DNA of 6,183 nt from Clostridia bacterium (GTDB lineage Bacteria > Bacillota_A > Clostridia > Peptostreptococcales > JAAYPU01): NCBI GenBank assembly GCA_022360735.1, contig JAKSCF010000206.1, forward strand, positions 1-6,183, read 5' to 3'. The notes under the pieces were generated by a model, which saw only the letters and a list, made by a program, of their open reading frames with translations, was not told the DNA's origin and ran no database searches. The position numbers and the translations under genes were made by a program. Each line of letters begins with the position of its first letter. Position 1 is the stretch's first letter. Shown here piece by piece: positions 2,357-6,183 of the stretch.

Positions 2357-4432
2357 ATGTATTCAGAACACGGTGTCAATAGAGTTTTAGAGCCAGAAAA
2401 TGTTTTTCCTGTTTCAGCATGGAAACTTGACAATAGTGAGAAAATATATAGCAATGAGTTAAGAATACGAGTAGAAAGATTGCATTTTGAAGCAGCAGCT
2501 TTTAAGCAAATATGTAATGACTGTAACAATGACATATATAAAGTCAAAGAGAAAATTATGTCCATAGTAGAAAAACGAGGGAAGCTTCACAATCCGTTTA
2601 CAGATACGGGTGGTGTTTTATATGGTATTGTGGAAGAGATGGGTGACAACTATGTTAATGACAGCGGCCTAGCGGTTGGGGATGAAGTTATTGGATTGGC
2701 TTCATTAACGATGCTGCCTCTTAAAATAAACCGAATTATTAATATCGATTTTCTATATGGACAAGTGGATATAGAAGGCTATTGTATCTATTTTAGTTTT
2801 TGTCCCATTATTAAAAAACCTGATAATGTACCGACAGAAATTGCTTTACTGACATTAGATGATTCAGGTTCAATTTTTCATATATATAAACAAGCAGAAA
2901 AAGGAAGCAAGTTCCTTGTTATAGGAAACGATGTTTTAAGTATGGTGTTATATGGATACACCATAAAAAAAGCTAACGATTTTGATTGTGAATTAATTGG
3001 AGTAATTGATAAAGGAAGCGGATACGCCAATTTAAACCAGTCAGATAAGTTAGCTCTAAACGTTAATAAAATATTTGATAAAATGTATGTTTTGGATATT
3101 CTTAAACCGTTAGAGTGTATTAAAACCTTGCAAGAAGAACACGAAAAGCTTTTTGATTTAAGCGTTAACTGCGCCAATATACCTGGGGCTGAAACCATTA
3201 ATGCTTTAATGACTCAGGAAAATGGTTTTATCTTTTTTCCCAGCCTTATTAACAATTACAGTATCGCACTATTTATATGCGAAGGAGTAGGGAAACAATT
3301 TAATATACGATGTTCTGAAGGATATATGGAAGGGTATTTGGATTTTATAGTTGATCTGCTAAAAGATATGAGTAAAACCATAAAAGACATTGCCGATTCC
3401 GGTAAGATTTTAACAGATATTAAGATGCAGCATATCGATAATACTTCTGTTAAAATATCCAATTACTACTATAAAAAAGGTTTGATTGATGATTTTATCT
3501 ACTATAGTAGTTCTATGGACAATGTCCTCAATGAAGCGCTGGATGTTGCTAAATACGATTGCAACGTATTAGTTAGAGGAGAAACCGGTGTAGGGAAAGA
3601 AAAGATTGCCTGCATTATTCATAAAAACAGCAATAGAAAGATGAATCCTTTTATTAAAATTAACTGTGCTTCAATTAATAGCAATTTGCTTGAGTCAGAG
3701 TTTTTTGGTTATGAAAAAGGTGCTTTCACAGGCGCAGCCAATACAGGAAAGCAAGGTTACTTTGAGTTAGCGGATACAGGTATTATTTTCTTAGATGAGG
3801 TAGGCGAGCTGCCTCTTGATATGCAAGCTAAATTGTTAAGGGTCATTCAAGATGGAGAGTTTTATAGAGTAGGCGGTATTCGCCCGATTAGAACCAATGT
3901 AAGAGTTATTTCCGCAACCAATCAAAATCTTGAGGAAATGATTCAAAATAATATGTTTAGAAAAGATTTGTATTATAGACTGAATGTATTTCCTATAACC
4001 ATACCACCACTTAGAGAGAGAAAGCAAGAAATCATGCCCCTTGCAGAGTATTTTGTTAAGAGTTATAGAGAAAAATTCAATCTCAATGTATCAGTGGATA
4101 GTAATGCACTTTATTACTTATCTGAATATGACTGGCCGGGAAATATTAGAGAACTGGAGAATATGATACAGAGAATATTGATAAGCAACAAAGGAGAAAG
4201 AATTACTGCATTTGATATTATTAAAGAGTTGAATAAAGATTTAATAGGACATATAAGAGAATACAGACATGATGAGTATGAACATATACCTCTAAAAGAA
4301 ATATTAGAATCTTATGAAAAAAATATCCTAGAGTATGCCATGAAAAAACACAAATCCACACGAAAAGCTGCAGAAGCTTTAGGAATCAGCCAAACTCAGA
4401 TGGTTAGAAAAAAGCATGAATATGATATATAA
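2357..4432 (+). CDS. Sigma-54-dependent transcriptional activator with an N-terminal Kdd-like (diaminohexanoate dehydrogenase) sensor domain
   Basis: The predicted protein has 691 residues. Residues about 1-335 align along their length with the Kdd protein encoded at 4856: RVLEP near the start, HNPFTDTGG (78-86) against HNPVTGSGG, NCANIPGAE (271-279) against NCVNIPNTE, CEGVGK (308-313) against AEGVGK. The Rossmann loop is destroyed: VIGNDVLSM (188-196) replaces VIGGGGKSG, so dinucleotide binding and catalysis are doubtful. A linker follows, then a complete AAA+ domain: Walker A GETGVGKE (408-415), GAFTGA (455-460), Walker B IIFLDE (476-481), RVISATNQ (516-523), FRKDLYYRL (534-542) and WPGNIREL (593-600). 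The C-terminal 25 residues form a Fis/TyrR-like helix-turn-helix (STRKAAEALGIS onward). The intact GAFTGA loop implies real contact with sigma-54 RNA polymerase. The neighbouring kdd has a -24/-12 promoter, so kdd is the obvious target. Inferred role: sensing a lysine-fermentation intermediate. The ligand is unknown; no signal peptide or membrane segment is seen. Confidence 0.93.
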   Translation: MYSEHGVNRVLEPENVFPVSAWKLDNSEKIYSNELRIRVERLHFEAAAFKQICNDCNNDIYKVKEKIMSIVEKRGKLHNPFTDTGGVLYGIVEEMGDNYVNDSGLAVGDEVIGLASLTMLPLKINRIINIDFLYGQVDIEGYCIYFSFCPIIKKPDNVPTEIALLTLDDSGSIFHIYKQAEKGSKFLVIGNDVLSMVLYGYTIKKANDFDCELIGVIDKGSGYANLNQSDKLALNVNKIFDKMYVLDILKPLECIKTLQEEHEKLFDLSVNCANIPGAETINALMTQENGFIFFPSLINNYSIALFICEGVGKQFNIRCSEGYMEGYLDFIVDLLKDMSKTIKDIADSGKILTDIKMQHIDNTSVKISNYYYKKGLIDDFIYYSSSMDNVLNEALDVAKYDCNVLVRGETGVGKEKIACIIHKNSNRKMNPFIKINCASINSNLLESEFFGYEKGAFTGAANTGKQGYFELADTGIIFLDEVGELPLDMQAKLLRVIQDGEFYRVGGIRPIRTNVRVISATNQNLEEMIQNNMFRKDLYYRLNVFPITIPPLRERKQEIMPLAEYFVKSYREKFNLNVSVDSNALYYLSEYDWPGNIRELENMIQRILISNKGERITAFDIIKELNKDLIGHIREYRHDEYEHIPLKEILESYEKNILEYAMKKHKSTRKAAEALGISQTQMVRKKHEYDI

Positions 4433-4533
4433 CCCAGATTATTCATGGAAACTGCAAAAAAGGTACAAGTATTTTGGAATTTATCGATTCTATAATTTTT
4501 TTGCTGTACTTGGTTAGTACAGTAGAAAAATTA
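4431..4533 (+). repeat. ~103-base interspersed repeat, copy 1
   Basis: This stretch, starting inside the activator stop codon with AACCCAGATTATT and ending AGAAAAATTA, recurs at 5927-6030. The copies differ by about three substitutions and one inserted C in the T-run, about 96% identity, while the DNA on either side is unrelated. Both copies lie in the same orientation just downstream of a gene. No terminal inverted repeat, open frame or target-site duplication was seen. The last 43 bases form a long hairpin (4492-4534). Between this copy and the inverted repeat at 4636 (about 100 bases) I see no gene or clear signal. Confidence 0.9.
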
Positions 4534-4635: not shown

Positions 4636-4727
4636 AAGCACACTGTTTTGTTCGTTTTCGGTTCACTTTTATTAACGTTTTATACGTAAAAGACTCGGAA
4701 TTAACATATGAACAATAAAGTGTGCTT
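4636..4727 (+). promoter_or_regulatory. Long inverted repeat, candidate enhancer (upstream activating sequence) for kdd
   Basis: AAGCACACT-N5-GTTC (4636-4653) is mirrored by GAAC-N5-AGTGTGCTT (4710-4727), giving 18-base arms that match at 16 positions with a 56-base interior. With transcription expected near 4817, the arms centre at roughly -172 and -98, the usual zone for sigma-54 enhancer sites. The two arms may be two binding sites for the activator. The interior holds a smaller imperfect repeat (CTTTTA 4666-4671, TAAAAG 4687-4692). The repeat is seen directly; the binding role is inferred. Confidence 0.55.
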
Positions 4728-4790: not shown

Positions 4791-4806
4791 TGGCATAGGA
4801 ATTGCA
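4791..4806 (+). promoter_or_regulatory. Sigma-54 (-24/-12) promoter of kdd
   Basis: TGGCAT at 4791-4796 and TTGCA at 4802-4806 match the consensus TGGCAC-N5-TTGCW at every position except the sixth, with the required 12 bases between the GG and GC elements. Transcription should start near 4816-4818, about 40 bases before the kdd ATG. An activator of the right class is encoded immediately upstream, and 60 bases of very AT-rich, probably flexible DNA separate promoter and enhancer candidate. Confidence 0.9.
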
Positions 4807-4855: not shown

Positions 4856-5893
4856 ATGAAGAAGGGATGCATTTATGGGACACATCGAGTATTAGAACCA
4901 AAAGGTGTATTGCCGCAACCTGCAATAAAAATTGACAATACTATGGATATCTATGATAATGAAATTTTAATTGATGTTCATACTTTAAATATTGATTCAG
5001 CAAGTTTTACACAAATTAAAGAACAAGCGGATAATGACGAAGAAAAAATAAAAGAAATTATGATGAGCATAGTGAAGGAAAGAGGTAAGCATCATAATCC
5101 GGTAACAGGGTCCGGCGGTATGCTGGTAGGAACAATAGAAAAAATAGGAGAAGCTTTAAAGGGAAAAATTGATTTAAAAGAAGGAGATAAGATTGCTACA
5201 TTGGTTTCTTTATCTTTGACACCGTTGGTCATTGAAGCAATACTAAATATAAGAAAAGAAATTGATCAAGTCGATATAAAAGGAAAAGCTATTCTATTTG
5301 AGAGTGGTATCTATGCAAAATTACCGGAAGATATGCCCATAAAGTTAGCATTATCTGCACTTGATGTTGCCGGTGCTCCGGCGCAAACTGCAAAACTAGT
5401 TAAGCCTGGTGATATCGTAGTCGTTATTGGCGGAGGTGGAAAATCCGGGCTGTTATGTTTGTATGAAGCTAAGAAAAGAGCGGGTGTTACAGGAAAAGTT
5501 ATTTGTATAGGCAGAAGTGAAAAGAGTGTCAACAAAGCAAAGAAACTTGGATTAGCAGATGCATTTATTCAAGCGGATGCAACACAAGCTATAGAGATAT
5601 ATAATAAAGTAAGAGAAGTTACAGGCGGCGAGTTAGCAGATATAGTCATTAACTGCGTCAATATTCCTAACACTGAAATGTCAAGTATTATCATTACAAA
5701 AGATAATGGCACGGTATATTTCTTTAGTATGGCAACCAGTTTTACAAAAGCTGCCCTTGGAGCAGAAGGTGTGGGGAAAGATGCCAATATGATTGTGGGT
5801 AATGGTTACACGAGAGATCATGCTGAGATAACCTTACAAGTTCTGCGAGAGTGTAAGCCATTACGCGATTTATTTGAGACAACATATGCATAA
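4856..5893 (+). CDS. kdd: L-erythro-3,5-diaminohexanoate dehydrogenase
   Basis: The 345-residue protein has the length and characteristic sequence of Kdd (EC 1.4.1.11): YGTHRVLEPKGVLPQPA near the N-terminus, NIDSASFTQIKEQA (45-58), HHNPVTGSGGM (79-89), a Rossmann-type loop VIGGGGKSG (190-198), NCVNIPNTE (266-274) and EGVGKDANM (304-312). It catalyses NAD(P)-dependent oxidative deamination of 3,5-diaminohexanoate to 5-amino-3-oxohexanoate and ammonia in the cytoplasm. This follows lysine 2,3-aminomutase and beta-lysine 5,6-aminomutase and precedes the Kce cleavage enzyme in lysine fermentation. GGAGG at 4845-4849, six bases before the ATG, supports the start. A sigma-54 promoter lies directly upstream and a Kdd-derived sigma-54 activator is the preceding gene, so inducible control by a pathway compound is likely. 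Unusually, the 290 bases after it contain no kce, kal or kam gene, so it may be transcribed alone or lie at the end of its cluster. Confidence 0.96.
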   Translation: MKKGCIYGTHRVLEPKGVLPQPAIKIDNTMDIYDNEILIDVHTLNIDSASFTQIKEQADNDEEKIKEIMMSIVKERGKHHNPVTGSGGMLVGTIEKIGEALKGKIDLKEGDKIATLVSLSLTPLVIEAILNIRKEIDQVDIKGKAILFESGIYAKLPEDMPIKLALSALDVAGAPAQTAKLVKPGDIVVVIGGGGKSGLLCLYEAKKRAGVTGKVICIGRSEKSVNKAKKLGLADAFIQADATQAIEIYNKVREVTGGELADIVINCVNIPNTEMSSIIITKDNGTVYFFSMATSFTKAALGAEGVGKDANMIVGNGYTRDHAEITLQVLRECKPLRDLFETTYA

Positions 5894-5926: not shown

Positions 5927-6030
5927 AACCCAGATTATTTACGGAAACTGCTAAAAAGGTACAAGTATTTTGGAATTTATCGATTCTATAATTCTTTTTG
6001 CTGTACTTGGTTAGTACAGTAGAAAAATTA
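5927..6030 (+). repeat. ~103-base interspersed repeat, copy 2
   Basis: This is the second copy of the element at 4431, starting 33 bases after the kdd stop and in the same orientation. Its terminal hairpin (5989-6030) keeps CTGTACT/AGTACAG and the TGGTT loop. The extra C at 5994 is a single-base bulge that leaves the rest of the stem paired. Together the two copies bracket the kdd promoter and gene, so recombination between them would remove or duplicate a unit of 1496 bases. The 32 bases between the kdd stop and the repeat hold only a T-run (TTTTTT at 5913-5918) without a clear stem. Confidence 0.9.
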
Positions 6031-6070
6031 ACTGAAAAACTATTAGCTAATCAAAGATTGGAGAATTCGA

Positions 6071-6174
6071 CTTGTATGAGACCTGCGACATAATCAGGCA
6101 GTAGAGAAGACGAAATTAGAAATTTCTTTCTCCTTGCATGAGACCTACATCGGAATTAGAAATTCCGTGTTAGG
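6071..6174 (+). other. Two tandem hairpin units with a conserved TAGAA loop, possibly a structured RNA or repeat family
   Basis: CTTGTATGAGACCT (6071-6084) recurs as CTTGCATGAGACCT (6133-6146). Each is followed by a hairpin with the same TAGAA loop: unit A stem GAAAT/ATTTC (6112-6116, 6122-6126) extended by GAGAAG/TTTCTC; unit B stem CGGAAT/ATTCCG (6151-6156, 6162-6167) extended by ACA/TGT and CCT/AGG. The second pair of the shared stem changes from A-T to G-C on both sides, a compensatory change. Unit A has an additional CCTG/CAGG stem (6082-6085, 6095-6098). I do not recognise it as a known riboswitch, tRNA or terminator. It may continue past the right edge. No open frame is present in 5894-6183. 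Confidence 0.5.
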
Positions 6175-6183
6175 GCTTCAAGA

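Follow-up and report, generated by a model that had tools for sequence, protein, structure and literature searches.

Several regulators sense their ligands with the fold of a metabolic enzyme, sometimes after catalysis was lost: MocR/GabR (aminotransferase fold), the ROK repressors (sugar kinase fold), and yeast Gal3. To our knowledge, these include no sigma54 activator and no protein with the fold of Kdd (L-erythro-3,5-diaminohexanoate dehydrogenase). Another point of comparison is TyrR, which senses with ACT and PAS domains, has no GAFTGA motif, and recognizes an 18-bp dyad that resembles the dyads we describe below. The nearest published function that we found is that of KamR from Bacillus thuringiensis, a PAS-type sigma54 activator that is encoded beside kamA and acts on a -12/-24 promoter of a lysine-pathway gene (PMC4428206, which cites Zhang et al. 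2014 J Bacteriol). Lysine 2,3-aminomutase is also among the genes reported as enriched under sigma54 in Bacilli (PMC12316311). A study of regulons in Clostridiales gives as sensors PAS, GAF, HPr, PrpR_N, ACT, CBS, Fer4, Fe-hydrogenase, FeS, V4R, and response-regulator domains, and the words lysine, kdd, and kam are absent from its main text (PMC6615313). Regulator terms gave no result in PMC3149608 and PMC4697335. Our searches of the open-access literature turned up no sigma54 activator reported to sense with a Kdd-like domain.

We studied a window of 6,183 nucleotides from a Clostridia bacterium, whose features are listed in Table 1. The original prediction, made from the letters of this window, was that a sigma54 activator encoded just before kdd has a Kdd-related N-terminal region as its sensor, and that its AAA+ part keeps GAFTGA, both Walker motifs, and a helix-turn-helix. 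Homology, a profile match, and the fold bear out the first claim, and motif and domain scans found everything named in the second; the AAA+ sigma54-interaction domain with Walker A and Walker B is as in other bEBPs. The C-terminal HTH_50 (52.7 bits vs. a threshold of 27) is shared with TyrR. Nevertheless, the activator does not reach the NCBIfam TyrR equivalog (275 bits vs. 576), it has GAFTGA (which a group of sister loci has lost), and the domain scan found no PAS domain in it. Nor does it reach the cut-off of the Kdd equivalog NF052381 (158.4 bits vs. 200). PHROGs added nothing on its N-terminal domain, Rfam had no match at gathering score, and a single-sequence scan found no relative among the genome contigs and no match among the viral contigs.

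Table 1. Features of the activator, kdd, and the DNA between them, with positions in the window.
Feature	Position	Strand	Basis
Kdd-fold sigma54 activator, 691 aa	2357..4432	+	ORF and domain matches
N-terminal Kdd-fold sensor domain, residues 1-345	2357..3391	+	homology and fold comparison
GNDVLSM, where Kdd has GGGGKSG (former cofactor loop)	2924..2944	+	alignment with Kdd
Walker A GETGVGKE	3578..3601	+	motif
GAFTGA sigma54-contact loop, residues 455-460	3719..3736	+	motif
Walker B IIFLDE	3782..3799	+	motif
TyrR-type helix-turn-helix (HTH_50)	4286..4429	+	domain match
Enhancer-like dyad GCAC-N8-GTTC, one mismatch from family motif GAAC-N8-GTTC	4638..4653	+	motif scan
Enhancer-like dyad GAAC-N8-GTGC, nearly repeating the other dyad in inverted orientation	4710..4725	+	motif scan and repeat search
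Sigma54 promoter of kdd, TGGCATAGGAATTGCA, without mismatch to TGGCAYRNNNNTTGCW	4791..4806	+	consensus scan; same position in relatives
kdd, L-erythro-3,5-diaminohexanoate dehydrogenase, proposed target gene	4856..5893	+	NF052381, 282 bits vs. cut-off 200
Intact cofactor loop GGGGKSG of kdd	5429-5449	+	sequence

The sensor domain matches the Kdd fold across about 340 residues (PDB 7dl0, 7dl1, 7dl3, and 7dl7), so that the comparison with Kdd crystal structures found the whole fold. What differs is the cofactor loop: as had been claimed, the alignment has GNDVLSM at the place of the glycine-rich dinucleotide loop, and the loop is lost throughout the window's branch. We also compared 76 activators (EBPs) of the main type with the 164 Kdd columns that show at least 95% conservation among 208 enzymes. 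They keep 36 of these columns, 93 are relaxed, and 35 are switched, meaning that a different residue is itself conserved at 90% or more among the main-type EBPs. The switched columns indicate re-specialisation rather than decay, and the alignment as a whole has the look of a pocket that was re-tuned.

The original prediction also suggested that a duplicated enzyme had turned into a receptor for its substrate or product (3,5-diaminohexanoate or 5-amino-3-oxohexanoate), which the Kdd ancestry makes plausible. The descent from Kdd and the loss of the dinucleotide loop stood up, but the neighboring kdd is not the parent. In a tree of 62 rows, rooted between 40 EBP N-domains and 22 enzymes, a branch with support 100/99 separates the two groups, so the fusion is older than the window locus. 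Likewise, 24 Kdd-fold EBPs group together in a tree of AAA+ parts (100/99), in which 4 other EBPs and 12 of the PAS type served for comparison. This suggests, as the simplest reading, one fusion and then joint inheritance of both parts.

Moving outward from the enzymes, the tree has locus L144, a group that we call type 5, L141, L140 (whose placement is weakly supported; three rows of the tree have long branches), and then a crown of 33 rows (100/100). L144 has the loop GAGGKIG and retains 108 of 163 conserved Kdd residues. The type 5 loops are GAWTKLG (L120 and L122), GAWGKMA (L126), and GAYGKMG (L127), with 83-92 residues retained; L141 has GASSKIG and 88 residues, and L140 has GANGKVG and 90. 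The crown rows retain 48-71, and the window's sensor domain retains 71 of the 163. Both of the later loop glycines are present in L144, L140, and L127, one is present in the other four basal rows, and none is present in the 33 crown rows. The L144 EBP (7777-9843) has an intact loop and scores 219.7 against the cut-off of 200 for the NCBI Kdd equivalog, so automatic annotation may name an EBP as an enzyme; at least this one fusion should serve as a warning. In L144, a perfect sigma54 site lies directly before a gene for a Kdd-like enzyme, which is followed by transporter-like and kal-like genes. Such a site precedes the gene for the Kdd-like enzyme in L120 and L122 as well, and is missing there in L126, L127, L140, and L141. 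The Kdd-like enzymes beside the EBPs of L120, L122, L126, L127, L140, and L144 form a separate clade (6 rows, 100/98) and are perhaps dehydrogenases for another beta-amino acid. Another Kdd-fold EBP, that of L125 from Eubacterium minutum (8023-10249), is broken into two frames.

These basal loops raise the question of whether the N-terminal domain still binds nicotinamide or another nucleotide and so reports the redox state or, as a trigger enzyme, turns over its substrate. The loop looks usable in L144, L140, and L127, and L144 is close to Kdd in its conserved residues and scores above the equivalog cut-off. Furthermore, E310 of the Cloacimonas Kdd holds the amide of NADPH (PMC9902596), and the equivalent Glu is retained in 76 of 76 main-type EBPs, so some residual nucleotide binding might persist. 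On the other hand, none of the 33 crown rows, the window included, has a glycine at either of the two later glycine positions of the loop (195 and 198 in the window's Kdd), and the loss of both should hinder the normal binding of the diphosphate of a dinucleotide. The lost loop suggests that the window's sensor domain, even with the amide-binding Glu, has lost catalysis. So nucleotide binding suits the basal members better than the window, for which we consider it unlikely.

A search with the N-domain found 604 proteins at E ≤ 0.001 among 3405 candidates, and the best 120 of the 604 carry the sigma54-activation domain. Four proteins (P0001-P0004) match the window protein at 73-86% over the N-domain, and the others among the matches listed do so at about 46%. 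For the loci of the profile scan described below, named hosts are, among others, Aminicella, Emergencia, Anaerovorax, Sinanaerobacter, Hornefia, and Clostridium aminobutyricum; the families given were Anaerovoracaceae (4 loci) and Eubacteriaceae (1 locus). Judging by record titles, many of these anaerobes are from animal guts. Of 391 genomes drawn from across the class, 31 gave a Kdd-fold match, and 7 carried the fusion, each of them along with a Kdd-sized enzyme. A draw of 398 genomes from across the phylum gave 82 with a match and 2 with the fusion, and these 2 had the enzyme too. Fusion and enzyme also occurred together in 20 of 20 genomes that were searched with a domain profile. Across these three sets, every genome with the fusion also had the enzyme, whereas the enzyme was often present on its own.

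The absence of any genomic association between such fusions and lysine-fermentation genes had been set beforehand as grounds for giving up the idea. The association was found. A profile scan of genome contigs gave 86 matches, of which we kept 80 loci, and kdd adjoins the Kdd-fold EBP in 71 of 81 loci (the 80 plus the window), divergently in L060. According to the locus maps, the usual order is a divergent kal, the EBP, kdd (one or two copies), kamA, kamB, kamC, kamD, kamE, and atoD. We checked the identity of the operon's genes with NCBIfam in one locus (L005), where Kdd, an AblA-type lysine 2,3-aminomutase, KamB, KamC, KamD, KamE, and Kal are all above their cut-offs. The 10 loci without an adjoining kdd are L001, L002, L009, L013, L035, L043, L053, L077, L078, and L079; in L009, L013, L035, L043, and L077, the contig ends in or just past the EBP. 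The window's own clade is small (P0001-P0004, L001, and L002), and in L001 and L002 its EBP stands before a second Kdd-fold EBP and kamA rather than before kdd. Behind these two tandem EBPs, kamA has a perfect sigma54 site before it and is followed by genes for a CoA transferase, a thiolase, and a class III aminotransferase (L001, 6628-11891; L002, 11527-16788). This gene set may represent another beta-lysine route, via a beta-transaminase and thiolase.

The relatives allow the GAFTGA loop to be compared with the sigma54 promoters of these genes. A sigma54 site lies before kdd in all 59 loci whose EBP has GAFTGA (52 perfect, 7 with one mismatch) and in 0 of 12 loci whose EBP lacks it (best words with 2-4 mismatches). 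Similarly, a site precedes the divergent kal in 38 of 45 loci with GAFTGA (7 have none) vs. 0 of 11 without it. On the opposite strand of the stretches upstream of kdd, the best words have 2-5 mismatches, and the consensus written backwards gave 0 matches vs. 106 sites in 1.26 Mb. The 12 loop-less orthologues at the kdd-kam operon are in L007, L008, L012, L014 (Aminicella lysinilytica), L021, L038, L039, L040, L045, L056, L058, and L065; in them the loop has either degenerated or been deleted, as with EADFFGIERGRSGYFE in L065. Two further loci of this kind, L142 and L143, have no sigma54 site before kdd (best 4 mismatches); the best word is identical in the two, which marks them as near-copies. 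We found rpoN in 73 of 78 genomes of relatives, including 11 of the 12 genomes with a loop-less EBP, so the change is local to this regulator and loss of the loop as a consequence of rpoN loss is ruled out. Loop loss is a single change on the best tree (branch support 14), so this co-loss should be viewed as one natural experiment, not 12. The loop-less orthologues are probably, by this comparison, a natural conversion to a sigma70-type regulator. Of the predicted "direct substrate control of lysine fermentation," it is control of the operon by the Kdd-fold EBP that the co-loss of GAFTGA and sigma54 promoters speaks to, and we regard it as well supported for a claim from comparative genomics.

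The promoter alone does not single out the Kdd-fold activator. As controls, we used 20 loci (L145-L164) from Clostridia that have kdd but not the fusion (20 of 24 such genomes). Of these, 15 have a conventional EBP of 462-493 amino acids beside kdd, and the 6 that we scanned all have PAS and a Fis-type HTH_8. A sigma54 site with at most one mismatch lies before kdd in 12 of the 16 control loci whose kdd start was located, and these 12 are the ones among the 16 with an EBP beside kdd. So control of this operon by sigma54 extends beyond the Kdd-fold EBP, and we ruled out that the promoter is special to genomes with the fusion. The PAS-type EBPs share with ours the chromosomal slot, the position of the promoter, and the target operon, but they differ in their sensor and helix-turn-helix and form a separate AAA+ clade (12 rows, 100/99). 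Because both the AAA+ clades and the helix-turn-helix differ (in a tree with 4 other EBPs), an in-place swap of PAS for Kdd is ruled out. It looks like non-orthologous replacement of one type by the other, in whichever direction. The control EBPs are perhaps KamR-like regulators of lysine fermentation; KamR itself, as described in the source cited above, has a PAS sensor and controls lysine 2,3-aminomutase in a Bacillus rather than a kdd-kam fermentation operon.

In other Clostridia, kdd has a similar promoter but is preceded by a PAS-type EBP from a different clade. Might another EBP act at the kdd promoter here, so that the gene for the Kdd-fold EBP is a hitch-hiker? We think this very improbable: the kdd and kal promoters are missing exactly where the Kdd-fold EBP lost GAFTGA, while rpoN mostly stays, and among the first 80 loci another EBP is nearby only in L018 and L049 (6.8 and 4.9 kb away).

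We also looked for the sites at which the activator might bind. Of 256 words at 7 spacings, GAAC-N8-GTTC ranked first in 57 regions between the EBP and the promoter; it occurs in 40 of the 57, against a mononucleotide-shuffle mean that rounds to 0, but as it was picked as the top word and the loci are related, this enrichment is descriptive. Counting stretches that end at the first kdd, the exact dyad is found in 40 of 57 loci with GAFTGA, where 0.3 would be expected; of the 12 loop-less loci, 10 have it, against an expected 0.05. For CGAACC-N6-GGTTCG with up to two mismatches, the counts are 34 of 57 (0.15 expected) and 8 of 12 (0.0 expected). So the loop-less group retains its DNA sites.

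In the window, the perfect sigma54 site is 50 bp 5' of the kdd start, and the two dyads lie 138 and 66 bp 5' of that site. Both are imperfect, with one mismatch each from GAAC-N8-GTTC, and the window has no match of the CGAACC-N6-GGTTCG type. Two or more such one-mismatch copies arose in a fraction of 0.0034 of 5000 shuffles. A palindrome, TGTAC-N7-GTACA, at 4505 and 6002 was set aside as the main enhancer: it is inside a duplicated element of about 100 bp that had no match in 5 related genomes, although that search is weakly informative. The element (about 103 bp, at 4431-4533 and 5927-6030) lies directly 3' of the activator and of kdd, with 72 nt at 94% and 36 nt at 100% and an inner palindrome CTGTACTTGGTTAGTACAG; it may be a terminator-like or mobile repeat. 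Further 3' of kdd, at 6066-6183, there are short imperfect direct repeats near CTTGTATGAGACCT / CTTGCATGAGACCT and GAAATTAGAAATT / GGAATTAGAAATT.

The prediction asked whether such fusions are always beside kdd or kam genes. The 71 loci with an adjoining kdd go a long way toward this, but "always" fails, as there are paralogues elsewhere without kdd next door. At least two EBP-sized matches were found in 14 of 20 genomes, with up to four (open frames of about 690-815 codons, excluding a frame-broken copy in G015). In L129, L131, and L132, the neighbors are atoD, atoA, a thiolase, and an aminotransferase. In L113, L114, and L135, they are an EamA-like transporter (by eye) and a B3/B4 protein (checked in L114). 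Genes of the Na+/H+ antiporter family are found by L116 and L128 (PF03553 checked) and by L115, L118, L119, L121, L123, and L134 (by eye), and L115 also has a D-serine ammonia-lyase gene beside it. The type 5 EBPs neighbor a Kdd-like enzyme, along with a TRAP-like transporter (by eye; L120, L122, and L127) and Kce (checked in L120). A perfect sigma54 site precedes a neighbor gene of many paralogues (the scan as a whole counted 133 sites, a few of them twice because of overlapping loci). These differing neighbors imply that the domain may now serve these bacteria as a sensor for amino acids more generally. We also note a protein of about 1600 amino acids encoded 3' of the EBP in L116 (11277-16046), L118 (15086-19900), and L134 (3240-8051); in the L116 copy, a cytidylyltransferase-like domain is the sole match to Pfam or NCBIfam at the thresholds applied.

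The paralogues bear on another idea, that the domain persists as a structural leftover, or else serves for docking and senses the Kdd protein or its complex rather than a small molecule. The EBP does adjoin kdd, and heteromers of homologous folds are conceivable. But paralogues lie by genes of the Na+/H+ antiporter family, D-serine ammonia-lyase, or CoA transferase and thiolase instead of kdd, and 35 positions are switched to new conserved residues, both of which speak against it. We view this idea as improbable.

We favor a circuit in which the N-terminal domain, without the usual hold on NAD(P), would bind a beta-amino acid of the lysine pathway, either 3,5-diaminohexanoate or its precursor beta-lysine. 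As in EBPs in general, binding would release or assemble the AAA+ ring. The TyrR-type helix-turn-helix would hold the dyads 5' of kdd, and the GAFTGA loop would open the sigma54 promoter and turn on kdd; in relatives, its targets would be the kdd-kamABCDE operon together with the divergently oriented kal. From the genomic evidence, we think it reasonably likely that this circuit as a whole is correct and, with it, that the window protein acts in the cytoplasm as a one-component sigma54 activator and senses with an old, re-specialised copy of the Kdd fold.

For the family, we suggest a longer history, which we hold tentatively and with slightly more doubt than confidence. The sensor family would have arisen once from Kdd, first as a fusion with the NAD(P) loop (L144, L140, L141, and type 5) that perhaps sensed by cofactor-dependent binding or turnover. 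A cofactor-free crown would then have radiated into receptors for several amino acids, including intermediates of the lysine pathway and the ligands of the antiporter, D-serine ammonia-lyase, and CoA-transferase/thiolase genes. Finally, one lysine branch would have lost GAFTGA and the sigma54 promoters, kept the dyads, and become a TyrR-like regulator of the sigma70 type.

This is a sigma54 activator with an enzyme-derived sensor, and the series of intermediate forms is unusually complete. If we are correct, then the series runs stepwise from the enzyme to a fusion with the cofactor loop, a fusion without it, a radiation of paralogues, and the loss of the sigma54 loop. It would trace the steps by which a metabolic enzyme can turn into a receptor whose candidate ligands are suggested by the parent enzyme, and it would propose a direct control circuit for lysine fermentation in a group of anaerobes.
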